Source of the DNA: a virus
DNA: 37,820 nt
Virus record (IMG/VR): IMGVR_UViG_3300034110_000680
Span: 1 to 37,820 of that record
Direction: 5' to 3' (one strand)
Shown here piece by piece: positions 128 to 37,820 of the stretch. A program made the position numbers and the translations under genes. The notes below the pieces were generated by a model. That model was not told the origin of the DNA and ran no database searches. It worked only from the letters and a program-made list of their open reading frames with translations. Within the stretch, counting starts at the first letter, position 1. The number at the start of each line of letters is the position of its first letter.

Positions 128-874
128 TTCCGTGCCGCCCCCGCTCCAGATGCACTCGCCCCGCCAGTTGTCGAACTCGCAGAACTCGATGACGATGCCG
201 GTGGTCTGGAACTCGGAGGAAAGAGCGATGCCTTTGTGGGTGACATCCCAGCCGTTAGGGGATGACCCATAGGACGGTTGCCCCGCGAAAGTGTCCACGC
301 TCGCCCCGCCGCTGGCGCGGAAGCCCCGCCATTTGATGTTCGCGACATTCGACGAACCGCCGACACGCGAGAACAGCCCGCCCCGCAGAAGTATCGCCCC
401 GCTCGGATCGGCGTTGCCTTTCGAGCGGAAGAAGAAGCGGGTTTTGTTCGCGCCGTCGCCTTCGAGGGTGACGTTGGAGAAGTCGATATTGAAGCAGTAT
501 CCGGGGCTGGCCCATGGGCCGGTCGGCGCGACGCGGTAGTCGCCTTCCGGGAAATAGACGGTCACGGGCGCGTTCGCATTGGCCAGCGTCCACGCCTTCG
601 CCGCCGCGATGGCCTCGCGGATGTCGAGCGTGGAGTCCAGTTTGCCGGTGATGTCCGCGCCGTAATCGGTAACGTCGAAAACTTCGCCTCCAAGGAGCGG
701 TGCATAGGCCGCCGTCTCGGCGGGCATCTCCGAGGCATATTGGCCGGCGTCGATGAAAACCGGTGGCGAAGGCCTGTCTGGACTCGTGTTGAGCGATGAG
801 TAGCCCAGGAAGCCGCCGATGATGGCGACCGCTCCAAGGCCCATGCTGCGGATGGTGTTTGCTCCGAGTTTCAT
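1..874 (-). CDS. Tail spike, pectate-lyase-like beta-helix, N-terminal part (gene continues at 37693)
   Basis: This is the start of a 690-aa protein whose remainder lies at 36495-37693. Reading from ATG at 874 stays open to base 1 and continues in frame across the circular join. The N-terminus has a hydrophobic stretch at about residues 9-25 (MGLGAVAIIGGFLGY), then a short linker. A block follows around DVTDYGADITG and REAIAAAKAW, as in the Pectate_lyase_3 / phage tail spike superfamily, where YGA-D-x-T and an AI-A helix precede a right-handed beta-helix. Such proteins bind and often cut surface polysaccharide. It starts 1 base after the stop of the upstream lectin-like gene, in the late leftward operon. 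The membrane-like N-terminus is odd for a tail-attached protein. Depolymerase activity is inferred; catalytic residues could not be assigned. Confidence 0.85.
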   Translation of the reverse strand, partial: MKLGANTIRSMGLGAVAIIGGFLGYSSLNTSPDRPSPPVFIDAGQYASEMPAETAAYAPLLGGEVFDVTDYGADITGKLDSTLDIREAIAAAKAWTLANANAPVTVYFPEGDYRVAPTGPWASPGYCFNIDFSNVTLEGDGANKTRFFFRSKGNADPSGAILLRGGLFSRVGGSSNVANIKWRGFRASGGASVDTFAGQPSYGSSPNGWDVTHKGIALSSEFQTTGIVIEFCEFDNWRGECIWSGGGTELGSQTITDCVIRQCNASAISNGGGVTVDNCHIYDVYNGTECF

Positions 875-875
875 C

Positions 876-1598
876 TTAGATCGTGATTCCCCACTTGGCG
901 GCCTTTTCCGTTTGCGCGGCCTGCCAGTCCACGTCGGCGAGGTGGGTGTTCCATACCAGCAACTCGAAGAGGTCGGCCAGCGGCGATTCGTTGAACAATC
1001 CCGGGCGGCCAATGGTAAGCTCGCCCCAATCCGCAGAAGCGGGGCTGCCGTCCGCGATGTCGGTGGTGCCGTTGAAATAGAGCGTGGTGGTGGCACTGGC
1101 GCTGACCCGCATGGTCAGGATGCCCACGGTGTTCGTGGCGGCGACGGCGGAATTGCGCACGGCATTGCCATTGATGAACACGCAGGCCGACGCCCGGCTG
1201 ATGTTCATGAGCGAGTTCGCGCCGATCGCGTTTAGAATCCGGTTGTCGCCGCTGCTGTTCTGCTTCGCGATGAGCATGATGGTGTAGGGCCGCGTGAGGG
1301 TCAGCCCGGTCACCGTGTTGTAGCCCTTCGTCCCGCTCTCCATGTCCAGCGCGGCGAGCCCGTTCTGCGTCGCGTCGCTCCTCGTCCCTCCGACGAGGTT
1401 CTCCACCATGTGGTGGCCGTTGCCGGATCGGTCTTCGATTCGCGCGACGGTGCCGTTGTTGGCGGTCGGTGAACCGCCCGAAGAGGCGTCGAACATGGAC
1501 GCGACGTAGGATGCGTCGATGTGCAGGATCGGCTCGGGGTAGGATGTCCCCACCGCCGCGACGCGGAGCATTCCGCATTGGAGAGATACGCCGTTCAT
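876..1598 (-). CDS. LamG/concanavalin-A-like tail appendage protein
   Basis: A 240-aa protein with the pattern of a laminin-G/ConA-like jelly roll: HIDASY near residue 27, an IEDRSGNGHH block near 54-63, then beta-rich segments ending in a DLFELLVWNTHL strand and a short helix before the C-terminus. Phage proteins with this fold usually bind glycans or decorate tail fibres. It sits between the long fibre gene and the tail spike gene and is very tightly spaced with both, so it probably belongs to the receptor-binding apparatus. The fold assignment is from sequence pattern only. Alternative: a capsid or tail decoration protein. Confidence 0.6.
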   Translation of the reverse strand: MNGVSLQCGMLRVAAVGTSYPEPILHIDASYVASMFDASSGGSPTANNGTVARIEDRSGNGHHMVENLVGGTRSDATQNGLAALDMESGTKGYNTVTGLTLTRPYTIMLIAKQNSSGDNRILNAIGANSLMNISRASACVFINGNAVRNSAVAATNTVGILTMRVSASATTTLYFNGTTDIADGSPASADWGELTIGRPGLFNESPLADLFELLVWNTHLADVDWQAAQTEKAAKWGITI

Positions 1599-1601
1599 CG
1601 G

Positions 1602-3086
1602 TTAAATTTCAAGGGTGTTGACCCAAACGCGGAGATCGGTGCCGCTGCGCTTCACGCTGATTTCAAACAAGTCGTTAGCCGCCAATCCAGCAATGTCGGC
1701 GAGCGCCCCGCCCATGACGCGGACGGTCAGGCCCGAATGCGCCAGCGCGACGGTGTAGGTGCCGCTGCCTCCCATGATGCCGCTCAGGCTGGCGGATTGG
1801 CCGTCGCCGAGGTTGGACAGGGTGATCGTGGTATTGTGGGCGAGCGTGAGGGTCGGCTGGGTCGTGGTTGAAATGTCCCACGCGATCCCCGTCGAAGATG
1901 TCAACGCGACCGGGATGAGGTAGTCCGTGACGAGCTTCTTCTCCCCGGCCGGGCGGACGCTGACGATCAGCGCGGAACCGTCGGCAAAGTTCGTTGTGCC
2001 GTCCCCCGCGCTGGAGAGCAGCGTGGCGGGGAACGTCCAGTTCCCGGACGACACGGAAGGCGTGGCGGAAAGCTGCCAGATCTGGTAATTGCCCGCGGTG
2101 GACTGGACCAGGATCTTGTCGCTCTTGCTGACCAGCAGAAGCTGCGAAGCCATGTCGATCCCGCCAGCGGTCACGCCGTCAAGGTAAAGGTTCGTCGCGC
2201 TGGTCTGGGTGGCGTTGTCCCAGCGGAGTTCACCTGCTGCCGGGGTCGCGGTGATCGCCCCGGTGTCCGCTGTCCATTCGCCGATCACTGGAAATCCGTA
2301 GTCACCCATTGAGGCGTCGGTGATGATGTAATACGTGTTCGCGTCCGGTGTTCCGACCGCCGCATAACCGGCTTTCGTGATCCCCACGATGTTGTAAATC
2401 TCAGTGCCGCCTGTAAGCCCGGTGATGTCGGAGGAAATCTTAGCGTCAAGAGCGGACTGCAAATCAGTCTGATCCCCGAGCGTGCCGGTGATGCTGCCCC
2501 AGGTCCCGCCGCCGCCACCGCCGCCCGCCGCGCTGATCACGTAGGGGTCGGCCGCCGTTCCCGTGCCGGTCAAGGTCACGTTGGTCCCTTCGGCAATCCG
2601 CCCGTTGATCGTGGTGACGGTCGCAGCGTTTCCGGTGGTCGATTGGTTGAACGTCGGCCAGGTGAACGTGCCGGACGAGAAGTTTCCGCTCAGGGGGGTG
2701 CCTAGAGCGGGCGTGGTAAGGGTCTTGTTGGAGAGCGTCTGCGTGCCGGTCAGCGTGACGTAGCTGGAAAGGTCTTGGTCGCCGGTATTGGTTCCCGAGT
2801 GAGTCCCGCCGTTGAGCGTGGTGCTAGCGGAAATGGCGAGCGTAGCCCCGCTGGTCTGCGTAACGTCCGCGAACTGATCGAGCGTGCCGGAAACAAGAGC
2901 GTCGCCCGTGCCCGATGCCGTGACGAACTCAAGCGCTGTCCCTCCCGAGTTGACCCGCACGAACTTTAGCCCCTGCCCGGTGTAGCTGCTAGGCGTATCC
3001 GTGAGAGCGGTAAAGGTTGCCGCCCCGTCAGCACCGGCTGGCCCGCGTGCGGCGGTGTCGAGATTGATCGTGATGGTTTCGGCCAT
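1602..3086 (-). CDS. Tail fibre / tail appendage protein
   Basis: A 494-aa protein of low complexity rich in Thr, Gly, Ser and Ala. The N-terminus has a short collagen-like GPAGADGAA segment (about residues 15-23). It is followed by features common in phage tail appendage proteins: GGTHSGTNTGDQ (about 93-104) and TGTQTLSNKTLTTPALGTP (about 112-130). A glycine run lies near 190. The C-terminal third is beta-rich. The start context is TTTAAGCC-ATG with no Shine-Dalgarno. It lies between the small baseplate-type gene and the lectin-like gene. Role as a fibre is inferred from composition and position. Confidence 0.75.
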   Translation of the reverse strand: MAETITINLDTAARGPAGADGAATFTALTDTPSSYTGQGLKFVRVNSGGTALEFVTASGTGDALVSGTLDQFADVTQTSGATLAISASTTLNGGTHSGTNTGDQDLSSYVTLTGTQTLSNKTLTTPALGTPLSGNFSSGTFTWPTFNQSTTGNAATVTTINGRIAEGTNVTLTGTGTAADPYVISAAGGGGGGGTWGSITGTLGDQTDLQSALDAKISSDITGLTGGTEIYNIVGITKAGYAAVGTPDANTYYIITDASMGDYGFPVIGEWTADTGAITATPAAGELRWDNATQTSATNLYLDGVTAGGIDMASQLLLVSKSDKILVQSTAGNYQIWQLSATPSVSSGNWTFPATLLSSAGDGTTNFADGSALIVSVRPAGEKKLVTDYLIPVALTSSTGIAWDISTTTQPTLTLAHNTTITLSNLGDGQSASLSGIMGGSGTYTVALAHSGLTVRVMGGALADIAGLAANDLFEISVKRSGTDLRVWVNTLEI

Positions 3087-9421: not shown

Positions 9422-10174
9422 TTACGATTGGTCGATGGCTTTCTTTGCAGCGTGGCGATACCACGCGATGGTTTTACGCAGGCCGAAGCCAAGCGCCCTC
9501 TCGGTGTCTGCTGGCCTCATGACGTAGCCGCTTGATGTGTGGCGGCTTTCGTTGATCAGGTAAGCGATGGGATTAAACGGGTCGGCGGTTGCCCTTGCCC
9601 TGCCACGGCTGGAATGCTTTTGAGCGTATCCGAGAAAGTTGCGGCCAATGTTAATCCGCTGCGCCCCGGTCTGTTTTCTGGCAATCGCCATGCCCGCGCC
9701 GATCCATCCGCCCTTGGCGATCCCTGCGCGGGCTTTCCTTGCGCGGATTACTTTCAGGACAACGCTTTTAGGCGCAACCCCAATGTTAAATTGATCGAGG
9801 CGCGGGGTGTGCCCCTTCGGCCCGCGATGGGATTCAATCCATTCGTGGCACCTTTCGACATCCGGCAGCAACCGCGCCGTTTCAACCTGAACCCACCGAT
9901 TGCGAATCTTGGCATTCTTGCGCTTGCCAGATTGGAGCAACCGGAACTCCTTATCGGTCACAATCGCGATTACGGCATTGACGCCTTTCTCGATTGCGTT
10001 CTCCTGCTTCTTTTTGGCCCCGCTCTTGCCGTGAACCTGAGTGGAAACCGCAACCTCGCGGCATACTTGAACGCCAAGCCTCGCCACGCCGGTCTTGTTC
10101 GTATCGCCAAAAGCCTTTGCCGCCCGCTTTAGCGAGTTCGTAAGCTTCGGAATATCGAATTCCGCCTTGATCAT
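9422..10174 (-). CDS. HK97 gp10-like / neck protein candidate
   Basis: A 250-aa basic protein with a helical start (MIKAEFDIPKLTNSLKRAAKAFG) followed by a Lys/Arg-rich core (QSGKRKNAKIRNRW near 80-94, RARKARAGIAKGG) and Gly/Arg-rich C-terminal half. The first 60 residues and gene position resemble HK97 gp10-type proteins, which join head and tail. At 250 aa it is much longer than a typical gp10 (about 130), so an extra domain is fused or the identity differs. It overlaps the upstream gene by 4 bases (ATGA). Confidence 0.45.
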   Translation of the reverse strand: MIKAEFDIPKLTNSLKRAAKAFGDTNKTGVARLGVQVCREVAVSTQVHGKSGAKKKQENAIEKGVNAVIAIVTDKEFRLLQSGKRKNAKIRNRWVQVETARLLPDVERCHEWIESHRGPKGHTPRLDQFNIGVAPKSVVLKVIRARKARAGIAKGGWIGAGMAIARKQTGAQRINIGRNFLGYAQKHSSRGRARATADPFNPIAYLINESRHTSSGYVMRPADTERALGFGLRKTIAWYRHAAKKAIDQS

Positions 10175-10503
10175 GACTTTGATGGTTCCGTGAGGCGGAC
10201 GATGACAAAAGCCGCGCCCTCCCGGATATTAGTCACCCGGAATGTCAGGCCGCGAGCCGTGGCGGTTTTCCCGAGATAGGAGGAAGCGGCGGCCGCATAA
10301 GCTGCGGACCAGTCGGATATTTGAACCACGGCGTCCAGCGATCTGGCCTTATCAAACCCGCCTTCCTCGTATTCCCTTCCGTTGTCCACCTCGGCAAACA
10401 CCGCCGAAACGGTGGTTCCGCCGCCGATGGCAAGCGCTTCCCCGCCGATGACGGCGCGAGCCTGCGTGAACATGCTGGCGGCAAAATCTGTAAGGCGGCT
10501 CAC
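10171..10503 (-). CDS. Head-tail connector / head completion candidate
   Basis: A 110-aa protein: MSRLTDFAASMFTQARAVIG helix, then GGGTTVSAVFAEVDNG, SWSAAYAAAASSYLG helix-like stretch and the C-terminal strands GLTFRVTNIREGAAFVIVRL. It resembles small alpha/beta head-closure proteins. It is coupled by ATGA to the gp10-like gene and lies directly after the glycosyltransferase cassette, so the neck module is cut off from the capsid gene by that cassette. Family not named from sequence alone. Confidence 0.5.
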   Translation of the reverse strand: MSRLTDFAASMFTQARAVIGGEALAIGGGTTVSAVFAEVDNGREYEEGGFDKARSLDAVVQISDWSAAYAAAASSYLGKTATARGLTFRVTNIREGAAFVIVRLTEPSKS

Positions 10504-10533
10504 GCCACCTTTAGAAAGCCAGCAGGGCGAACG

Positions 10534-11133
10534 TCAAGCGCCCTCAGGGGCTGCTGTAGTCGCCGCGTGGTGCCGGTAGGTGTGAAGCACAGCGTCGATG
10601 TGGTGCGCCGTCCTGACGCGCTTGCGTGCTTGCATGCACCATTCCCGGTCCTCGCCGTAATTGGATAAACCGAATTGGCAGCCGTGGACGACATCGCGAC
10701 GCCATGCGCAAACGTGCCACGGGGCGCGGAGGGTGATCCCGCCCGGCGTAAATGGCCCGTCCTGGTTGTTGATGCCGAAATGAACCTCGGATTCCAGCCC
10801 GTTGTAGATTGCCCGCTGGCGGAACGTGATTACGTCGGCGTTGCTCTCGGCTGCGGCTAGCAGCTTCTCCACGTAGTCCGGTGAAACGTCATCATCATCA
10901 TCGACTTGCGCGATGTAGCGTCCTTGCGCGCTGTCAACCAGCGACTGCCGTTTCGCGCCGATGCTGCGGGCGCGGTTGTCGCACAATACAAGGTGCTCAA
11001 CGGGAAGACCCTTGGATTGCCGCTCAATTTCTCTTATCAGCCACGCCGCCGGTTTGATGTTGTGGTCGGATTCGTCGAGTTGAATCAGGCGACTCGGAAT
11101 GCTTGGCGTGAGGATTGATAGGATTGGATTCAT
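10534..11133 (-). CDS. GT-A family glycosyltransferase (GT2-like), 199 aa
   Basis: A short GT2-type transferase: LSILTPSIPSRL at residues 5-16, LVLCDNRA near 48-55, ARSIGAKRQSLVDSA (GT-A type nucleotide-sugar region) and a run of acidic residues QVDDDDDVSP near 75-84 that contains the DXD metal site. A later RAPWHVCAWRRDVV and SNYGEDREW fit the acceptor-side half of the fold. It probably transfers a sugar from a nucleotide donor to a glycan or protein. It is the last gene of a cassette with the 722-aa fusion (three transferase domains in total), set between capsid and neck genes. It lacks a long C-terminal extension, so it is a single domain. Confidence 0.75.
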   Translation of the reverse strand: MNPILSILTPSIPSRLIQLDESDHNIKPAAWLIREIERQSKGLPVEHLVLCDNRARSIGAKRQSLVDSAQGRYIAQVDDDDDVSPDYVEKLLAAAESNADVITFRQRAIYNGLESEVHFGINNQDGPFTPGGITLRAPWHVCAWRRDVVHGCQFGLSNYGEDREWCMQARKRVRTAHHIDAVLHTYRHHAATTAAPEGA

Positions 11134-11224
11134 GTTTCTTGAAAATTCGGTCGTAGTTGCTGCGGAACCGCTCGCCGTTGACCGGGCGCGGATCGTCCCC
11201 TTTGCCTGCTTGGTTGTTACTCAT
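11024..11224 (-). CDS. Small conserved phage protein (GKGD-PRPVN / NYDRIF type)
   Basis: A 66-aa protein: MSNNQAGKGDDPRPVNGERF, then SNYDRIFKKHES, followed by a basic tail. The GKGDxPRPVN...NYDRIF pattern is one I know from many phage proteins of unknown function. The start ATG at 11224 overlaps the stop of the upstream fusion (ATGA), which supports it. Its 3' end overlaps the next gene's 5' end in a different frame by about 110 bases. Function unknown; the conserved part ends near residue 30. Confidence 0.6.
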   Translation of the reverse strand: MSNNQAGKGDDPRPVNGERFRSNYDRIFKKHESNPINPHAKHSESPDSTRRIRPQHQTGGVADKRN

Positions 11225-13389
11225 GGCTTCTTGATCCAGCATCGTCCGACTTGCTCCCACTCGAAACCGGCCTCTTGCACGGCTCGCAGAACTCCCGGCG
11301 CGTCGATGTCGTGACCGCCAAAGAATCCACCCGGTTTGACCTTGGGAAGCCACGCTGCGATGTCGGCCTTGACGTTCTCGTAATCGTGCGCGGCGTCGAT
11401 GAATATGCCGTCCATGAAACCGTCTGCGGTAGCGGCGGCGGATGCCGTCGATGTTGATTGGGCAAACCCGATTCCTCTGCCGCTGACGTTTGCCATGAAC
11501 TCATCCAAGAAATACTCCTTTCCCGTGTCGTCGTCTCCGCGGAAAGTATCAACGCAACACAGATTCGCCTCTTTCCCCAAGTCGCTCAATCTGTCCGCAA
11601 GATAAACGATGCTTTTGCCCTTCCAGCATCCGACTTCAGCAAAGTTTCCGCTCGCTGGAATCATCTTGGCCACGTAGTCGTAAACGTCCCGGAAGTCGAA
11701 CCAGCCTTCAATGTCGGCGGATACCTTCACGCCTTCGCACAGTCGGCGGAAAATGCCCTCGCCGGTCTTGTAGTGGTAGCCGTCGTTTGATCGGGCGTAG
11801 GTTTCATCCATGGCAGCCTTGCCAAAAGCCGGGTGGACATGCTCAAAGGTGATCCGGTCGCGGGCGTCGATCACCACGCCGTCCTTGAAAGCTTGGCGGC
11901 TAAACCAGTTGTCTGAGAACATCGAAAAGAACTCGGGGTGGAACAGGTATCCCTGCTGCTTGTAGCGGGCGCGGGTTAGAATCGCCATGCAAAGCAGGTC
12001 GTCTTTCCGGTGTCCGTCGCTGACTGCTAGAACGGCGGATTTTGATGTGTCGCCAATCGCTTCCAGAATAAGCTTATCCCAGTGCATCGGCGGCTCCCAA
12101 TCGTCCGACAGTTGAACCAGAACCTCGCCGCGTGACTTCGCTGCGCAAGCGTTCCACGCTTCAACCGGCCCGCCATTTCCCCGCGTGTAAACGTGGTTAA
12201 ACACGTTCAGAAAGCAGGATGTCGGGTCGTCCGCGTCGAGTCCGAAAATGTGCTCAATGGCGTCCGGGTTTGCCGCACGGTTCAGCCACTTCTGTTGCGC
12301 CGCTGCCGCTTGCGCCGGTCGCCCCCGCGTGGCGTGGAGCAGGCTGATTTTGGCCCCGTGGCGGATGAAGTAATTTCGTTGCGTCGTGTCTGCTTCCTCG
12401 ATACGCCCGCAAGCCCGCAGCGCCATTCCATGCAGGAACTCGCCCAGCCATCCGTGATACTTCATGCGGCTGTTCCACTCCTTGCCCGCGCCCTTTGAGA
12501 TTTCGCGCATTGCGGTAGTCCATGCCAGCGCCTCGCGGTCGCGCCCCGCCGCCACTTCGCACCGGGCAAGCTCGCCGTAGGCTTCCGGTCGCTTAGGATC
12601 GGTCGCCAGGGCTTGCAGCATCATTTGGGATCGCACCCGCTCGTCTTCCGCAAGTTGTCCGGCGGCGATGAACAGTTCGTATTTCTCAGGCTGGCCAAGG
12701 TTCGATTCCGTATCTCGAAGCATTTCGATGCAAACCTTGCCCGCGTCCTCGATCCGCCCAACGGCTCGCAGCGACTGGAACAGGTGGAACTTGTGGGAGG
12801 TTGTCCGCTTGGTTTCCGGGATGCTTTCTAGAATCCGCAGGTTCCGCTCGTTATTTGGTGAGCGCGTGCCGCTTGGCATGTGAAGGATCTTCACGGATTC
12901 CAGCCTACCGACCTTGGCCCCTTCGCGGAAAACAAGATGCTCATGGATTGGCGACTCCCAGCGTGCCGCGCCTTTACGAATAATGCGCTCGCGAAAAACC
13001 GTCAACCCGTCCTCGGGAACTTCGTATGGGATCTCGATTCCGTCGTGATCTTCAGGCAAGTTGTCGATTGCGGATCGGATCAGCTGGATAAACGACGGAT
13101 CAAGCACGTCGTCAGTGTCTGCCCACATTACAAAATCACCTGTCGCGAGGTCAAACGATGTATTTCGCGCTGCCGCGAAGTCGTCAACGTGTGACCAGTC
13201 GTTCCGGTTAAAGTATTCCCCGGTAACGCATCCGCGAGTCGCCGCAATCTCAAGCGTTTTGTCCGGCTCTTGATTCCCGATGGCGCGAACAACAATCAAC
13301 TCGTCAACCAGCGGGAGGAAATTATTGAGAAAGCGTGGCATGTAATGCTCCACGTTCCCCGCGATAACGCAGAGGCTCAGTTTCTTCAT
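11221..13389 (-). CDS. Multidomain glycosyltransferase-TPR-glycosyltransferase-methyltransferase fusion, 722 aa
   Basis: Domain order: residues 1-150, a GT2 domain (LCVIAGNVEHYMPRFL, DELIVVRA, DFAAARN, DTDD at 91-94 as DXD). Residues about 200-345, helical repeats that look like TPR (LFQSLRAVGRIEDAGKVC, AYGELARCEVAAGRDREALA). Residues about 349-545, a second GT-A domain (LLHATRGRPAQAAAAQQKWL, EHIFGLDADDPTS, QLSDDWEPP). Residues about 575-722, a class I SAM methyltransferase (FAEVGCWKGKSIVYLA as the glycine motif, CCVDTF, IFIDAAHDYENV, PKVKPGGFFGGHD). It probably builds and methylates a glycan. Targets are unknown: virion glycoprotein or host surface are both possible. ATG at 13389 chosen; an earlier in-frame TTG at 13407 is less likely. 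A terminator lies between it and the capsid gene. Confidence 0.8.
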   Translation of the reverse strand: MKKLSLCVIAGNVEHYMPRFLNNFLPLVDELIVVRAIGNQEPDKTLEIAATRGCVTGEYFNRNDWSHVDDFAAARNTSFDLATGDFVMWADTDDVLDPSFIQLIRSAIDNLPEDHDGIEIPYEVPEDGLTVFRERIIRKGAARWESPIHEHLVFREGAKVGRLESVKILHMPSGTRSPNNERNLRILESIPETKRTTSHKFHLFQSLRAVGRIEDAGKVCIEMLRDTESNLGQPEKYELFIAAGQLAEDERVRSQMMLQALATDPKRPEAYGELARCEVAAGRDREALAWTTAMREISKGAGKEWNSRMKYHGWLGEFLHGMALRACGRIEEADTTQRNYFIRHGAKISLLHATRGRPAQAAAAQQKWLNRAANPDAIEHIFGLDADDPTSCFLNVFNHVYTRGNGGPVEAWNACAAKSRGEVLVQLSDDWEPPMHWDKLILEAIGDTSKSAVLAVSDGHRKDDLLCMAILTRARYKQQGYLFHPEFFSMFSDNWFSRQAFKDGVVIDARDRITFEHVHPAFGKAAMDETYARSNDGYHYKTGEGIFRRLCEGVKVSADIEGWFDFRDVYDYVAKMIPASGNFAEVGCWKGKSIVYLADRLSDLGKEANLCCVDTFRGDDDTGKEYFLDEFMANVSGRGIGFAQSTSTASAAATADGFMDGIFIDAAHDYENVKADIAAWLPKVKPGGFFGGHDIDAPGVLRAVQEAGFEWEQVGRCWIKKP

Positions 13390-13423
13390 GTGCGAACACT
13401 TAGGCAAAATACCGCCAACAAGA

Positions 13424-13460
13424 CAAGCAAAAACCCGCCCCCATTAGTGGGAGCGGGTTT
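13424..13460 (-). terminator. Rho-independent terminator after the major capsid gene
   Basis: A 12-bp stem with one mismatch (arms 13431-13442 and 13449-13460, loop ATTAGT). On the minus strand it ends in a GTTTTTG run, so it would stop transcription leaving the capsid gene. Genes downstream (cassette, neck, tail) then need readthrough, antitermination or a promoter of their own. Confidence 0.8.
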
Positions 13461-13476
13461 GTGCCAAGATGCCGAA

Positions 13477-14370
13477 TTAAGGCTTGCGGAAAAGCTTCAT
13501 TTCCCCGGTGACGGCGGTGGTGTAGCCGTAGAGGGTGTGAAGGTTGGCGAAGTATTTGCCCTGAGCGCGGGACCAGTGGCGGGTGTAGAGAGCCGAGATC
13601 CCGGTTTCGTCGTCCGTGTAGGTTTCGACGGCTTCGTAATCGCCAGTTGGCAGGAAGTCACCAAGCGAGCGCATGGCAACCGCGATTGCGTTCTTGCCGC
13701 AAGCGAAACCGCAAAGGCTGATCGAGTTCAGCGGCAGGATGTCGCTCGAAAGGAGGTTCATCCCGTAGAGTCGGCCAAGGCGGCCTTCGCTAAGGGTTGC
13801 GCCACCGTCGCCGCGATTAAGCGCGAGCGTGATGTTCGTGTCGCTCAGAAGCGCGGCTTCGGCGTCCATGTCCACCAGGAAGGTCTTGTCGCCGCGAACG
13901 CCAGCCTTGAGAAGCTGCTTGCGGGCTTCGATCAATTCCACCCGGTCATAGTTGGCAGGGGCGGTGGTGATGATGGCTTCGCCGAAGTTGGTGGTGAGCA
14001 AGACGGACCAGATGTCCTTGAGCACGGTTTCAGCCATGCTCTTGCCAAGCTGCATCGCGTATTGGTTCCAGCGTCCAACGTTGGAGCTTTCCGCAAGCTG
14101 TTGGAGGGTAATGTCCATCGGGGTGATCCGGCGCTTGTCCAGAGTCACGGTGATGGCAGAAATCAGGCCGCCCGACTGTTCGTAAACGGTCGTGGACTGG
14201 GTGAAGGTGGTGGTCGCAATCGCGCCGAAAAGCGGAACGATAACGGCGTCCCCCTCGCCGCGCACTTCCGAACTGATGTCGGTTGCGAAAGCGGAGATCG
14301 GGGTCAGGTATTCGACAAGAGCTTGGAAGGCGGTCTGCCCGTAAAGCTTGTCATTGAAGGTAGTGGCCAT
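13477..14370 (-). CDS. Major capsid protein
   Basis: A 297-aa protein beginning MATTFNDKLYGQTAFQALVEYL, with TTTVYEQSGG, KRRITPMDITLQQLAESSN and a C-terminal FANLHTLYGYTTAVTGEMK. Length, composition and position directly after the protease/scaffold gene fit a HK97-fold capsid protein. It is the last gene before an intrinsic terminator. The start context is CTGAACC-ATGGCC with no Shine-Dalgarno. Processing of an N-terminal scaffold domain is not expected, because the scaffold appears to be fused to the protease upstream. Confidence is high for capsid, moderate for the exact family. Confidence 0.85.
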   Translation of the reverse strand: MATTFNDKLYGQTAFQALVEYLTPISAFATDISSEVRGEGDAVIVPLFGAIATTTFTQSTTVYEQSGGLISAITVTLDKRRITPMDITLQQLAESSNVGRWNQYAMQLGKSMAETVLKDIWSVLLTTNFGEAIITTAPANYDRVELIEARKQLLKAGVRGDKTFLVDMDAEAALLSDTNITLALNRGDGGATLSEGRLGRLYGMNLLSSDILPLNSISLCGFACGKNAIAVAMRSLGDFLPTGDYEAVETYTDDETGISALYTRHWSRAQGKYFANLHTLYGYTTAVTGEMKLFRKP

Positions 14371-14397
14371 GGTTCAGTGATGTTTGGTTGGGAATGT

Positions 14398-15552
14398 TTA
14401 CTTGCGAAGGCGGGCTTCGGCGTTGATCTGCTTCTTGAACTCCTTGAAATAAGAGGTCGCTTCCGACCCTTTCAGGGATTCAAACTTATCAAGGTGAGGG
14501 GTGGCGCTGTTGTCGGCTCCGGTGATTTCGGTGACTTCAACAGGAGTATGACCGGCGCTCGCGATCATCGCGGCAGCCTTGGCGGAAATGGCATCGGCAA
14601 TTACCGCGGGAGCTTCGGCGCAAGCAACAAGCTCAAGCGCCTTGGCTTCGATGGCTTCCGGCTTGGATGCTTCCTCGGCTTCCTCCTTGGCTTTTTCGGC
14701 CTGCTCGCGGGCTTCGGCTTCCGCCTTGGCTTGAGCTTCGGCGGCTTCGGCTTTTTCCTTTAACTCGCGAACTTCTTCAACCGCTTGAGCAAGCAGCGTG
14801 TCCGCTTCCTTGATCTTGCCGGTGAGGTTCTGAATTTCGACATCCTTGGCGACAAGTTCGCCGTTTGCGAAGTCGAGCTTCGCCTGGAGTTCGCCGTTAG
14901 GAAGTAACCTGTCGAGAATGCTCATTTGATTGTTCTGCGATTTCGGACCAGTGCCGCGAATGTCAACCGGGGATTTGTTCACGATGGAGTCGGCAAACTT
15001 GCGTTCAACCGCTTCGCTTGCTCCCATCCATGTCTCCTTTTTCATCAACTCGCGCATTTCGGATTTAGGCGATCCGGTAACGCCTGCGTAAATGGCGGCG
15101 ATTTCGTCGCTCATTTCATCAAGGATCTTTGCAGCGCGGGCGTGGGTTTCGGAGTCACCGGCAACCGCTTGTTGCGCTTCGTGGATCATGATGCGCGAGC
15201 CTTGCGTGATACGCCGCTCGTCTGCCGCCATGAAGATCACGCTAGCCATGCTTGCGACGATGCCGTTGCCGGTAGCGACCACGCGAACGCCACGGTCCCG
15301 CATTCCCATGATGGAATGATAAACCCGGTATCCGTCGAGCACGCTGCCGCCAGGGCTGTTGATCTCGATTTCGAGAGTCTCCAGCGCGTCGTCTGCTTTG
15401 GCAGTGAACTCCCCGATCTTCAGGTTTTCGGCAACGGCCTTCGCCCCGTAAAGCTTCTCGATGTCCCCGATCAGGTCATCGGAACTCCACGGGGTTACCG
15501 CGTCGTTCAGCTTCACCTTGCCGATGCGGTTATCAATCTGAATCAAGTTCAT
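14398..15552 (-). CDS. ClpP-type prohead protease fused to scaffold-like coiled coil
   Basis: A 384-aa protein. Residues 1-205 are a ClpP-family serine protease: NSPGGSV (oxyanion region) at 65-71, catalytic Ser at about 101 in GIVASMAS, His124 in MIHEAQQ. Residues about 235-315 are a long Ala/Glu/Lys coiled coil (EAEAREQAEKAKEEAEEASK), typical of phage scaffolds. This is the lambda C / Nu3 logic: the enzyme matures the prohead and the C-terminal part acts as scaffold. ATG at 15552 chosen (MNLIQID). An internal ATG at 14925 (MSILDRLLPNG), residue 210, could give a 175-aa scaffold alone; its leader AACAATCAA-ATG resembles other starts here. It overlaps the portal gene by 20 bases. Confidence 0.82.
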   Translation of the reverse strand: MNLIQIDNRIGKVKLNDAVTPWSSDDLIGDIEKLYGAKAVAENLKIGEFTAKADDALETLEIEINSPGGSVLDGYRVYHSIMGMRDRGVRVVATGNGIVASMASVIFMAADERRITQGSRIMIHEAQQAVAGDSETHARAAKILDEMSDEIAAIYAGVTGSPKSEMRELMKKETWMGASEAVERKFADSIVNKSPVDIRGTGPKSQNNQMSILDRLLPNGELQAKLDFANGELVAKDVEIQNLTGKIKEADTLLAQAVEEVRELKEKAEAAEAQAKAEAEAREQAEKAKEEAEEASKPEAIEAKALELVACAEAPAVIADAISAKAAAMIASAGHTPVEVTEITGADNSATPHLDKFESLKGSEATSYFKEFKKQINAEARLRK

Positions 15553-31860: not shown

Positions 31861-32931
31861 TTAAAGCTTTCGGGCAATTCCGAAGTATTTCCGCCCGTCT
31901 GATTCCGTGACGGCCTTTCGGTAGTGGCGAAAGAGCGTGTCGCTGTCGGCGGTGTGCCCCATGGCCTGCCTACAAGCGTCCACCCCGTAAACGGCGAGGA
32001 AGTTCGACGCGAACGTGTGCCTCGTTAAATCCTGCGACGCCCCCAGCCCTGCCGCCTTTCGCAACCGCTGCCATTTCACCTTCCACCAAGCAGGCGCAAC
32101 CGGCCCGCTTTTGGGATGCTCGCGAATCCACCATCGCAGGCGACGGCCTAGCGGAATATGCCGGTCGCTCCCGGTTTTGCTGGTGTCGTGGTCAATGTAG
32201 ATTTCATCCTTGCCGACCGCTTCCCAGTCGAGGCGCGCAATCTCACCGTCTTGCGCGGAGGGTCTGATTCCCGCGTATAGGAGCAGCCCGACCGCTCGCC
32301 TTGTCTCCGGGTCTTTCCTCGCCTCCCACTTGAGGATTGCCAGTTGCCGCTTATCAAGCAGGGCGATGCGTTTCGCCTTCCGCTTGCCGCCTCTCCCCGA
32401 CAAAACCGCGTTGATCCTGGCGGTTCGTGCATGGATCGTCGATTCCGCTTTAGCCCCGCCAGCGATGACGGCAGCTCGCACCGCAGCGGGCGTGATTTCG
32501 TGCAAGCGCGTGTCCATGAAGCCAGCCGGAACCCATCGGTCAATCTTCGCGATGTCTTCGGCATACCGCTTCCGCCACACGCCCTCCTGCCGCTCCTGAT
32601 AGGCAAGCCAGCGCTCTTTGAACGTCTCCGTGCCCTTCCCTTCCTCCCAGCGTGCTACGGCGGCTCTAGCGGCCTCCAGCAAGGTCATCCCGGTCGGCGC
32701 TAGGATTCGGATCGCCTCCGCTGCCTGGATGCTCTGAGCGGGGTCTAAGACGGTCCCGCGAATCCCCTTGCCCCACTTCGCCCGCAGTCCTCCCGCGAAC
32801 TTCTCCGCAGCCGCCTTGTCAGCCCCAAAGAACGTCCTTTCACGCTTGCCGCTTGCTGACATCGTAGGCGGGATGGAAACCCTCCACCCGTCAACGGTTA
32901 GGATTGCTCTAAGCTCTGGTCTGCGTGGCAT
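31861..32931 (-). CDS. int: Tyrosine integrase
   Basis: A 356-aa tyrosine recombinase: N-terminal arm-binding region, core-binding helices to about 180, catalytic domain with R223 (GIRPSA), K252 (SKTGSDRHIPL), R304 in DLTRHTFAS, H326 (MGHT), and nucleophile Y337 (RHYRK). The first residue of the HxxR box is Asp (D301) instead of His, a change seen in some families. ATG at 32931 is preceded by AGGAGA, one of the few Shine-Dalgarno sequences here. The frame stays open to 33129, but residues there are read from attP and are not real. attP lies 80 bases upstream. Confidence 0.9.
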   Translation of the reverse strand: MPRRPELRAILTVDGWRVSIPPTMSASGKRERTFFGADKAAAEKFAGGLRAKWGKGIRGTVLDPAQSIQAAEAIRILAPTGMTLLEAARAAVARWEEGKGTETFKERWLAYQERQEGVWRKRYAEDIAKIDRWVPAGFMDTRLHEITPAAVRAAVIAGGAKAESTIHARTARINAVLSGRGGKRKAKRIALLDKRQLAILKWEARKDPETRRAVGLLLYAGIRPSAQDGEIARLDWEAVGKDEIYIDHDTSKTGSDRHIPLGRRLRWWIREHPKSGPVAPAWWKVKWQRLRKAAGLGASQDLTRHTFASNFLAVYGVDACRQAMGHTADSDTLFRHYRKAVTESDGRKYFGIARKL

Positions 32932-33011
32932 TTCTCCTGCCACTATTGCCAGATTGCGAAGGCTCGCAAGGGATTTCAAGGGTTGGCGAGGGCGCTGGAA
33001 GCCTTGTAAAA

Positions 33012-33058
33012 TGGAGCCGCTGAAGGGATTTGAACCCTTGGCCTGCTCATTACGAATG
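33012..33058 (-). other. attP core: 3' half of tRNA-Thr (anticodon CGT)
   Basis: On the minus strand the sequence has an anticodon loop TTCGTAA (anticodon CGT, ACG codon), the anticodon stem 3' arm TGAGC, a variable loop, T-arm AAGGG-TTCAAAT-CCCTT, the acceptor arm CAGCGGC and TCCA. The 5' half of a tRNA is missing. The exact shared core with attB cannot be told from one copy. Confidence 0.8.
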
Positions 33059-33193
33059 GTCGGCGTTTCCTTGTGGCTGTAGGGCTGGCGGGCGCTTTTC
33101 TGCTCGATTGCCACCTGCTGCCAAAACAATTTGATTATTTTCTCGCCAGAATCAAAAAACCGTTCATCTTCACGTCGTCACCGAAACGAACCG

Positions 33194-34132: not shown

Positions 34133-34809
34133 GCTTGCCATTGTCCGGTTTTCGAGTTGATGAGTCCGTAAAGGAAACCCTGCCGCCATGCCAGTTTCGC
34201 GGGCGTGCGGTCGGCGTAGGTCATTTGGGTGATGTCGGCCATGCAGCCAACGGAGAACGCCTGAGAGCCCTCGATGTGCCTTGCGTGGTAGGCGTCCGGC
34301 TTGTGCGTGTGACCGTGCAAGCACTCGCCCCAATTCTCGTAATGGGCTTTCGCCGGATACATCGTGGCGCGGAAGCCGTGGATGAGCCTAGGACCGCCCT
34401 CTGGCATCCGCAGGTAGCTTTTGACGTGATAGGGCACGAACGCAATCCGGCGCTTCCTAAAGGCGTCCTCGGAGGCCCTAGCAAGCTCCTGGCACCTCTC
34501 GCGTAAGATGCCGTCCGGCGCGTGCGTCGAGTTCAGCCAAATCCGGTCGTCATGGTTCCCGAGCGTGAGGAAGTTCGGCTTGAAAGCGTCGATGAACTCC
34601 AACCCCGCCTGATAATCGTCCACGATGCCCTCGGCCTTTTCCTCCTGCGATGCCCCGCGCCTGAGTGGGGAAAAATCCCAAAGGTCGCCAAGGTGAATCC
34701 GGTGCTTGGGTTTCCAAGTGTCACAGAATGCCAAGAGTTTCTTGAGCGCCACCGGGCAGCCGAGGCTCCCGTGATTGTCGGCTGCTGCGATCCACGGGAT
34801 ATAGCTCAT
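34078..34809 (-). CDS. Calcineurin-like metallophosphoesterase
   Basis: A 243-aa protein with the metal motifs of the family: AAADNHG near 8-14 (D11, H13), GDLWDFSP near 41-48, LGNHDDR near 83-89, and HGHTHKPDAY near 165-174. It hydrolyses phosphodiester or phosphomonoester bonds with two metals. ATGA overlap with the endolysin gene ties it to the lysis module, where such enzymes are unusual. Substrate unknown. Confidence 0.75.
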   Translation of the reverse strand: MSYIPWIAAADNHGSLGCPVALKKLLAFCDTWKPKHRIHLGDLWDFSPLRRGASQEEKAEGIVDDYQAGLEFIDAFKPNFLTLGNHDDRIWLNSTHAPDGILRERCQELARASEDAFRKRRIAFVPYHVKSYLRMPEGGPRLIHGFRATMYPAKAHYENWGECLHGHTHKPDAYHARHIEGSQAFSVGCMADITQMTYADRTPAKLAWRQGFLYGLINSKTGQWQAWHATNENGTWISPQGVL

Positions 34810-35309
34810 ACGGTAAAACGGATTCGTGAACGGACCAAATCAATGTGGCGACGCTTGCGGTAAACGCCGTCACCCTCGCGGGAGCCTGCGCCGTTGGTAT
34901 TCCCCTCAACGGTCATGAAATGGCCGTCCTTATCGACGCCAGAGGTGGCAATTCCAATGTGAGAGAACTTGAAAATCACTACATCCCCTCGCTGAATATC
35001 ACCCCTCGGGTTGCGCTTGGTCTGCGTGCTTTTGTCCTGAGCGAGTGACCAATCCTCGAAAGCCCATGCGCCAGGGGTGGTTGGACGCTTGAAGGTGAAC
35101 TGCTGGCCGGAAAGCTCCATGGCAGCCTTGACTGCCCATGCCACAAAACAAGCGCACCAAGCATACCCATCGTCCGTTGCGTTGGGCTTGTAGTTGTCGG
35201 CGTCGAAGAACTCACGCAATCCGCCGCCCTTGTTGCTGCCGCCGCTCTCGCGAATCCCGATCTTGGATTCCGCCTGCACCGCAACTAGTTCAGGAAGGAT
35301 AGGTTTCAT
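34806..35309 (-). CDS. CHAP-domain endolysin
   Basis: A 167-aa protein: AWCACFVAWAV near 50-60 with catalytic Cys52, FKFSHIGIA near 114-121 with H117, and VEGNTN near 134-139 (E135, N137), the Cys-His-Glu/Asn triad of CHAP peptidoglycan amidases/endopeptidases. No signal peptide is seen, so a holin must release it. ATGA overlap with the phosphoesterase gene downstream. Confidence 0.8.
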   Translation of the reverse strand: MKPILPELVAVQAESKIGIRESGGSNKGGGLREFFDADNYKPNATDDGYAWCACFVAWAVKAAMELSGQQFTFKRPTTPGAWAFEDWSLAQDKSTQTKRNPRGDIQRGDVVIFKFSHIGIATSGVDKDGHFMTVEGNTNGAGSREGDGVYRKRRHIDLVRSRIRFTV

Positions 35310-36494: not shown

Positions 36495-37820
36495 CTAGGG
36501 AATGGTTACTTCCAGCGCGTCGCCGACGCGCGTGGCCGAAAGCGTGACGGTTCCGGCGCTCACGTAATCGACTCCGTTCGACATTTCGAGCACGCCGGGA
36601 ACGTGGTCGAGCGTGACGTTTGCGTTGAGGTTGAGGTCAATGGTTTCACCGATGGCGACGCCCGTGAACGAGCTGTAAGTCTGCGCGACGGTCGGCGAGA
36701 GGTTGACCTCAAGCTGTCCGAAGACGGCGATTTCAGAGGCGGCGGTCTGTCCGGTTGTCGCGGTCTGCGTGAGGGTGCGGACGTTCACGGTGTTGGGCGT
36801 GAACGACACGAAATCGAAGTCTCCGGACGCGTTCTTGGTCATGTTCAGCACGCCACCGGCAAAGAGCATGTAACCGCGGGTAAGCGTGTTCCAGCTTGCG
36901 TCAGGGATGACCTCCACGCCGAAGAAGCCGGAACCCGTGCCAATGCGTGCAAGCGTGAACCCGAAGCCTTCCGGGAATCTCTCCGGGAAGGTGAGGGTGA
37001 ACGGGTGACTCGGAGCGGCGGAGTCGACAATCGCGACTTTCCCCCACGCGGGGCATACTTCAAACGGGTCGGCGGCGGTCGGGTCGTAGCTGAAAAACGT
37101 CTCGCCGTCTGACCATTGACCGGTGATCGTGTTGAGGGTGAAGGTCGGGCGCGTTCCCGTGTTCGCCTGGATCGGGCGGGAATCCGCGATTACGTTCCCC
37201 GAGACAAGGAAGGTGCCGGTCGCTCCGGGTGATACGAGGAAAATGCCTACGGTAAAAGCTCCGGTGCTCACGGTGGTGTTGTCCGTGAACGTCCAGTCGG
37301 ACCCGCCCTGCACGGAGTTGATCGCGGAATCGACGTTGCGCGTGGCGGCGGTGAAGGTGTTGTCGGTGACCAGCCAATTGTCATAGACATTCAATTCTTC
37401 CGGCGGGAGGGATGGATAGCCGCCAGGGCTGTAGCAATAGACTCCAATGGTGTCCTCGAAAGTATTGCGCTGGATGGTGACGTTGCTGGCCGATTCAGCC
37501 AAGAAAACGCCGCCTTGGTTGGTGTCGCCAATCGTGTTATCCTCCGCGACGAGGTGGCATTGGGGGTAGCCGAGATATACCACCCCGAACTTTCCGATTT
37601 TCAGGTCCCCGGTCAGGTTCCGGTTGACCTCGATGACACTGTTTCGGACTTCAAGGAACTGGGGAACGCCGAGAGGCACGCTATCTCCAAGCGCGAAGCA
37701 TTCGGTCCCGTTGTAAACGTCGTAAATGTGGCAGTTGTCCACCGTTACCCCGCCGCCGTTGCTGATCGCCGAGGCGTTGCACTGGCGGATGACGCAATCG
37801 GTGATCGTCTGACTGCCAAG
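36495..37820 (-). CDS. Tail spike, pectate-lyase-like beta-helix, C-terminal part (gene begins at 874)
   Basis: The continuation of the spike: residues about 276 to 690. Beta-helix repeats are visible as short VTIxxN/NTF-type turns (SNVTIQRNTFEDTIGVYCY, DWTFTDNTTVSTGAFTVG, LVSGNVIADSRPI), followed by a separate C-terminal domain (FTPNTVNVRTLTQTATTG to VTIP) that may bind the receptor or trimerise. Bases 37694-37820 duplicate 1-127. ATG at 37742 is internal, not the real start. Confidence 0.85.
   Translation of the reverse strand, partial: LGSQTITDCVIRQCNASAISNGGGVTVDNCHIYDVYNGTECFALGDSVPLGVPQFLEVRNSVIEVNRNLTGDLKIGKFGVVYLGYPQCHLVAEDNTIGDTNQGGVFLAESASNVTIQRNTFEDTIGVYCYSPGGYPSLPPEELNVYDNWLVTDNTFTAATRNVDSAINSVQGGSDWTFTDNTTVSTGAFTVGIFLVSPGATGTFLVSGNVIADSRPIQANTGTRPTFTLNTITGQWSDGETFFSYDPTAADPFEVCPAWGKVAIVDSAAPSHPFTLTFPERFPEGFGFTLARIGTGSGFFGVEVIPDASWNTLTRGYMLFAGGVLNMTKNASGDFDFVSFTPNTVNVRTLTQTATTGQTAASEIAVFGQLEVNLSPTVAQTYSSFTGVAIGETIDLNLNANVTLDHVPGVLEMSNGVDYVSAGTVTLSATRVGDALEVTIP
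37694..37820. repeat. Right copy of the 127-bp terminal repeat
   Basis: Exact copy of 1-127; see the left copy. Merge the two to obtain the unique circle of 37,693 bp. Confidence 0.93.

Follow-up and report, generated by a model that had tools for sequence, protein, structure and literature searches.

A glycosyltransferase-methyltransferase cassette fixed behind the capsid gene of a clade of uncultured phages is predicted to glycosylate the major capsid protein

The computational analysis described here covers the 37,820-base IMG/VR virus record IMGVR_UViG_3300034110_000680 (the window), which may be a fragment. Pfam and PHROGs assignments define a late gene order on the minus strand, with TerL, a lambda-type portal protein and a Clp-type head protease upstream of the major capsid protein (MCP), followed by the cassette under study, a neck gene and the tail genes. 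The MCP (13477..14370, minus strand) is of the HK97 type (Pfam Phage_capsid_4, phrog_283); its structural model is of low confidence (pLDDT 62.8), with phage capsid proteins as the top fold matches. The first gene downstream of the cassette (10171..10503, minus strand) encodes a probable head-tail attachment (neck) protein, which has a sub-cut-off match to Phage_attach (E 0.009) and a conserved position. Elsewhere on the minus strand, the window encodes a CHAP-domain protein (34806-35309), a right-handed beta-helix protein (36495-37742) and a candidate tyrosine integrase (31861-33129) whose weak match falls just below the cut-off and suggests that the phage may have a temperate life style. Opposite the MCP and Clp genes, a 497-codon frame stays open on the plus strand (13270-14763); base composition probably accounts for it, and it has no support as a gene.

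The cassette comprises three minus-strand genes. The largest (11221..13389) encodes a fusion protein characterized by Pfam, PHROGs, AlphaFold2, Foldseek and a PDB profile search; its ATG start yields 722 residues, and a TTG 18 nt further upstream would yield 728. It is followed by a 66-aa protein named after its GKGD motif (11024..11224), identified from its translation, the motif and gene overlap recurring in relatives, and by GT3 (10534..11133), a 199-aa GT-A glycosyltransferase (Pfam Glycos_transf_2, 7e-7; phrog_8858, 1.7e-30). An intrinsic terminator with a 13-bp stem and a T-rich tail (13431..13460, minus strand) lies between the MCP and fusion genes. A preliminary description of this DNA had delimited the cassette as 11221-13460, a range that holds the fusion and terminator only; the cassette reaches 10534, and the GKGD protein and third GT-A protein that the description had placed beside the fusion are indeed present.

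The fusion protein consists of four parts: a first GT-A domain (GT1, residues about 1-190), a TPR-like helical block (about 177/195-343), a second GT-A domain (GT2, about 345-548) and a Methyltransf_24-type methyltransferase (about 552-722). Pfam detects Glycos_transf_2 at residues 5-143 (5e-15), a weak, below-cut-off TPR at about 257-293 and Methyltransf_24 at 585-695 (1.4e-16); the second glycosyltransferase, missed by Pfam, is found by PHROGs at residues 347-543 (phrog_14945, 1.6e-19). An AlphaFold2 model built from a 26-sequence alignment (mean pLDDT 84.9, pTM 0.65) places the helical block between two mixed alpha/beta domains, with another alpha/beta domain forming the C-terminal part, and Foldseek matches this model to GT-A and class I methyltransferase structures. 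Domain search and structure prediction therefore agree with the architecture first proposed for this protein, namely two GT-A domains, helical repeats and a class I methyltransferase. The motifs DxDD (91-94) and HE (149-150) in GT1 and DDW (429-431) in GT2 are invariant in the 26-sequence alignment. As judged from sequence, the cassette encodes glycosyltransferases, with three GT-A domains, of which the two in the fusion bear intact catalytic-type motifs. Analysis of the fusion alone revealed no membrane-helix-like hydrophobic stretch, the hydropathy maximum being 1.25 over 19 residues.

The N-terminal half of the fusion has recognizable relatives of known structure. In a single-sequence search, GmaR was the only PDB sequence match of the fusion (1e-6), and a family profile searched against the PDB retrieved GmaR (2.6e-17, residues 3-187), SunS (3.7e-10, over 4-226) and ThuS (9e-9). 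SunS and ThuS, peptide glycosyltransferases as their PDB names also indicate, are the top fold matches of the fusion model. Their targets are small peptides, modified on Cys. Identity with GmaR and SunS is remote (12-15% in the fold matches), and the DxD and His-Glu motifs of GT1 align with those of both enzymes. The GT1-TPR half thus resembles polypeptide glycosyltransferases, and transfer to a polypeptide is predicted. GmaR of Listeria is a glycosyltransferase-TPR protein that transfers GlcNAc onto flagellin, and recognition of flagellin by its TPR has been proposed (PMC9638930).

At the C-terminus, the fusion carries a class I SAM-binding fold with Methyltransf_24 motifs. It matches MeT1 and MycF by fold, and MeT1 also by profile; MycF is a sugar O-methyltransferase by its PDB title, and MeT1 is one as well. 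The domain resembles sugar O-methyltransferases of the MycF/TylF, MeT1 and FkbM types, so that its substrate may be a sugar. In relatives, the C-terminal module starts at one junction and exists in four states: Methyltransf_24-like, FkbM-like (an assignment based on a reading of the motif), a third class I type carrying the motif YDLGCGNG, and none. On the tree of the GT1-TPR-GT2 core, six changes of state are counted among 26 taxa, nearly the 6.6 that a random spread would give. The core is the constant part of the protein, and the methyl cap is its variable, swappable part.

The two smaller genes are tightly packed behind the fusion. The start of the GKGD gene overlaps the fusion stop (ATGA), and its 3' half runs out of frame over the start of GT3 for 110 nt in the window; in seven relatives (L014, L017, L050, L059, L062, L084 and L178), this second overlap measures 89-119 nt. 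The GKGD protein has a conserved N-terminal motif, GKGDxPRPVxxxxxxxNYDxIF, and a basic tail encoded inside the overlap. It is optional among relatives, has no family match in Pfam or PHROGs, and has no match in annotated phages. In one relative (L012), a C5-cytosine DNA methyltransferase-like gene (9896-10744, plus strand) lies between the fusion and GT3.

The terminator ahead of the cassette, described from the outset as strong, is the strongest in the region, where terminator-like sites are no more numerous than in shuffled sequences. Of 34 relatives, 26 have a terminator-like hairpin with a T-rich tail following the MCP gene, as compared with 5.9% of random 140-nt stretches. No sigma-70 promoter for the cassette was found above chance.

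The position of the cassette was examined across related loci. A fusion-based search identified 30 viral loci, with full-length fusion relatives 52-66% identical, and the order portal-Clp-MCP-fusion-(GKGD)-GT3 is kept in 28 of them, as far as the contigs reach. Because such a search could favour finding the fusion, three scans were carried out with the MCP alone; wherever a contig extended far enough past the MCP, the fusion came next. Clustering of the MCPs at 95% identity gives 34 clusters for the cassette group. Among those with long enough contigs, the fusion is present in 33/33, and GT3 follows it in 30/30; in the sister MCP group, clustered in the same way, the counts are 0/35 and 0/32. 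The sister group includes Verrucomicrobiota prophages: a profile search found MCP homologues in 25 of 388 Verrucomicrobiota genomes, and the 13 strongest of these regions were retrieved. A related portal is present in most of them and a Clp-type protease in several, and in none of the 13 does a cassette glycosyltransferase lie within about 6 kb downstream of the MCP. A viral scan with outgroup MCPs added 80 loci, none with a match to GT1, GT2, GT3 or the methyltransferase. On the strength of the cluster counts in the two groups, the cassette is a clade-defining insertion fixed behind the MCP gene, not a chance or one-off arrangement. The same cassette recurs in related phages and is missing at this place from the sister group, which upholds the original impression that its location is unusual. 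Annotated phages yielded only partial matches to the fusion (26-35%) and none to the MCP.

A few phages have one or two additional small genes separating the MCP from the fusion. Two such genes are found in L106, L145, L146 and L148 (about 1.4-1.5 kb) and in L097; the second (211 and 191 aa) is alike in L145 and L097.

The head genes of this phage group recombine heavily, which provides a natural test of whether fusion and MCP belong together. Strong mosaicism exists between portal/Clp and MCP: L007-L013 and L020, for instance, share about 72% MCP identity with the window and only about 24% portal identity. Distance matrices were computed for the fusion, MCP, Clp, portal and GT3 of 26 phages. 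Distances to the MCP correlate at r = 0.85 for the fusion core, 0.84 for the TPR block, 0.82 for GT1 and 0.74 for GT2 (n = 26, the distances being non-independent), versus 0.44 for Clp, 0.40 for the portal and 0.38 for GT3. The bootstrap difference between the core-MCP and Clp-MCP correlations ranges from 0.25 to 0.58. Trees tell the same story, as well-supported splits of core and MCP are in conflict in 2/17 (core) and 2/11 (MCP) cases, whereas the Clp tree conflicts with 9/11 supported MCP splits. GT3 is present in all clusters, yet it recombines away from the MCP: it tracks the fusion and, given the fusion, not the MCP (partial r -0.33), and its tree conflicts with 7/17 supported core splits. 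Closeness alone does not explain the pairing of fusion and MCP, since the equally adjacent Clp gene does not follow the MCP; a recombination hotspot upstream of the MCP could partly account for it. The pairing would be explained if the TPR half of the enzyme had to match its own capsid protein, and if GT3 took the glycan, not the protein, as its substrate. A genetic association of the transferase with a virion protein gene is present in both respects, presence (33/33 versus 0/35) and co-inheritance.

Taken together, the cassette is probably a phage-encoded system for glycosylation of the MCP, both the glycan and its acceptor being predicted; that it works like, and belongs with, virion glycosylation systems is a well-supported prediction. 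In the proposed mechanism, the TPR block would bind the product of the adjacent upstream MCP gene and, in the cytoplasm of the host, GT1 would attach a first sugar to one of the MCP side chains, most likely a Ser or Thr. GT2 and the free-standing GT3 would then lengthen this sugar into a short oligosaccharide, whose outer sugar the C-terminal methyltransferase may cap by O-methylation; the cap would be evolutionarily swappable. The terminator behind the MCP gene may hold the enzymes below the level of the structural protein. The preliminary description had spoken of a full donor-to-acceptor assembly unit, which is an overstatement: the annotated window genes include none for sugar-nucleotide synthesis, so the donors would be the host's. 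The MCP has clade-specific Ser/Thr residues at T3, T74 and T135. Its model was too weak for placing an exposed acceptor site from the fold.

As for the advantage of such a modification, capsid glycans of mycobacteriophages protect virions from antibodies (PMC11256854, PMC12363180). Antibody shielding is unlikely to be the driver here, because these are phages of free-living bacteria; protease protection, altered adsorption or surface variation are possibilities. A wider reading is somewhat less likely than not: the HK97-fold capsids of the whole clade would bear an obligate coat of glycans. A fused enzyme dedicated to the capsid would start, extend and cap the glycan and would recombine with the capsid gene as a unit, and the rapidly swapped methyl cap would be a variable surface determinant.

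Another virion protein, such as the tail tube, neck or tail fibre, might be glycosylated instead of, or besides, the MCP. The cassette sits between head and neck genes, mycobacteriophages glycosylate both capsid and tail tube (PMC12363180), and the co-inheritance comparison was confined to the fusion, MCP, Clp, portal and GT3. Among the genes compared, however, fusion distances match those of the MCP best (r = 0.85), and we regard this alternative as unlikely.

Modification of a host surface glycan, for receptor masking or superinfection exclusion, had been put forward beside virion-protein modification in the preliminary description. Of these two targets, the virion protein gains from the MCP co-inheritance and the GmaR/SunS-type half, and the host surface is less supported. 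The O-antigen is the target of many phages' glycosyltransferases (PMC12619734), the possible temperate life style would suit such a role, and GT2 and GT3 have homologues on the chromosomes of Verrucomicrobiota, in one instance side by side. Against this, the fusion has no membrane-helix-like stretch, and neither a polyprenyl-phosphate (lipid-carrier) transferase nor a Gtr-type membrane transferase and flippase were found among the annotated window genes. Moreover, the cassette lies inside the late head module, is co-inherited with the MCP and is absent from the sister prophages fetched from Verrucomicrobiota, which makes a host-surface target quite unlikely.

It could also be argued that the cassette is a conserved accessory element without a functional tie to the MCP, retained by descent alone, as it marks a single clade, is set apart from the MCP transcript by the terminator and gains and loses its methyltransferase frequently. 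Such passive retention is very unlikely in view of the absence of any loss in 33 clusters despite heavy recombination of the surrounding head genes, the invariance of the catalytic-type motifs of both fusion GT domains in 26 sequences, and the behaviour of fusion and MCP as one unit when Clp and GT3 do not follow. Glycosylation of phage DNA, of the T4 type or as a hypermodification, is highly improbable: virus-encoded DNA-hypermodifying glycosyltransferases are known (Pyle et al. 2024, as cited in PMC12619734), but the window has no thymidylate-synthase-type (hydroxymethylase) gene (PF00303, in a search whose controls worked) and no Tet/JBP match (in a search whose positive controls were silent too), the enzymes resemble protein/peptide glycosyltransferases, and the fusion is co-inherited with the MCP, in a comparison of the fusion, MCP, Clp, portal and GT3.

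When one genome per GTDB species was scanned with a pattern, the fusion GT2 domain turned up, alone, in just two Verrucomicrobia MAGs, and GT2 homologues occur in 4 of 388 Verrucomicrobiota genomes. One of these four (L113, genome G068) encodes a protein that joins a fusion-type GT2 domain to another GT domain (424-2139, minus strand) and, divergently adjoining it, a GT3-like gene (2243-2857, plus strand; 31% identity); this pair may represent the cellular origin of the two phage genes. Derivation of the whole cassette from a host genome was also considered and set aside: no complete fusion was found in the 388 Verrucomicrobiota genomes. The GT2 homologues, the GT3-like neighbour and the related MCPs in Verrucomicrobiota prophages are a lead suggesting that these phages infect the phylum Verrucomicrobiota and took the genes from it, the MCP search of cellular genomes having covered that phylum alone.

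Virion glycosylation by phages is described, in the literature considered here, for a small number of mycobacteriophages. If the proposed function is correct, capsid glycosylation would be a constant trait of an entire group of uncultured phages whose hosts are probably Verrucomicrobiota; the enzyme would be tied to its substrate by co-inheritance and would combine initiating GT, elongating GT and cap in one polypeptide. The cassette would then serve as a compact genetic marker of capsid glycosylation in metagenomes, and would offer a testable enzyme-substrate pair and a prokaryotic parallel to chlorovirus A064R.

Several known systems share parts of this design. GmaR likewise has an N-terminal GT domain followed by TPR and carries out O-GlcNAc transfer to flagellin (PMC9638930), but it is a cellular protein with a single GT and an antirepressor domain, and has neither a second GT nor a methyltransferase. 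SunS and ThuS combine a GT-A with a helical domain and act on a polypeptide, but lack elongation or capping domains. WsaE, from Geobacillus S-layer glycan synthesis, is trifunctional, with two GT domains and an O-methyltransferase whose cap ends the chains (PMC2943079); unlike in the fusion, its methyltransferase is N-terminal, and it works on a lipid-linked polymer, which an ABC transporter exports before its transfer to protein. A search of the literature for capsid glycosylation in phages involving a methyltransferase or TPR returned nothing matching the cassette.

Functionally closest are mycobacteriophage capsid glycosylation and chlorovirus A064R. In the former, exemplified by Che8 gp110, Corndog gp38 and Myrna (Freeman et al. 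2023, as cited in PMC12363180 and PMC11256854), an ordinary tailed phage encodes glycosyltransferases that modify its HK97-fold capsid protein and tail tube; these two accounts mention no methyl cap (PMC12363180, PMC11256854). The Maravista glycosyltransferase genes lie near the genome 3' end and not behind the capsid gene (PMC11256854), and the Che8 enzyme is only a weak fold match to the fusion, whereas in the present cassette a fusion of four parts has a fixed place after the MCP gene. PBCV-1 A064R is a 638-aa protein with the order GT, GT, methyltransferase, which builds and O-methylates the outer glycan part on the viral MCP (PMC9614988). It belongs to an algal virus, acts on N-glycans begun by other enzymes, lacks a TPR block and has a second GT of another family; its likeness to the fusion is treated as functional convergence. 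In the light of both precedents, the preliminary suggestion of a new glycosylation system narrows. What sets the cassette apart is that a GmaR/SunS-type half, an elongating GT and an exchangeable cap come together in it, fixed to the capsid gene and co-inherited with it.
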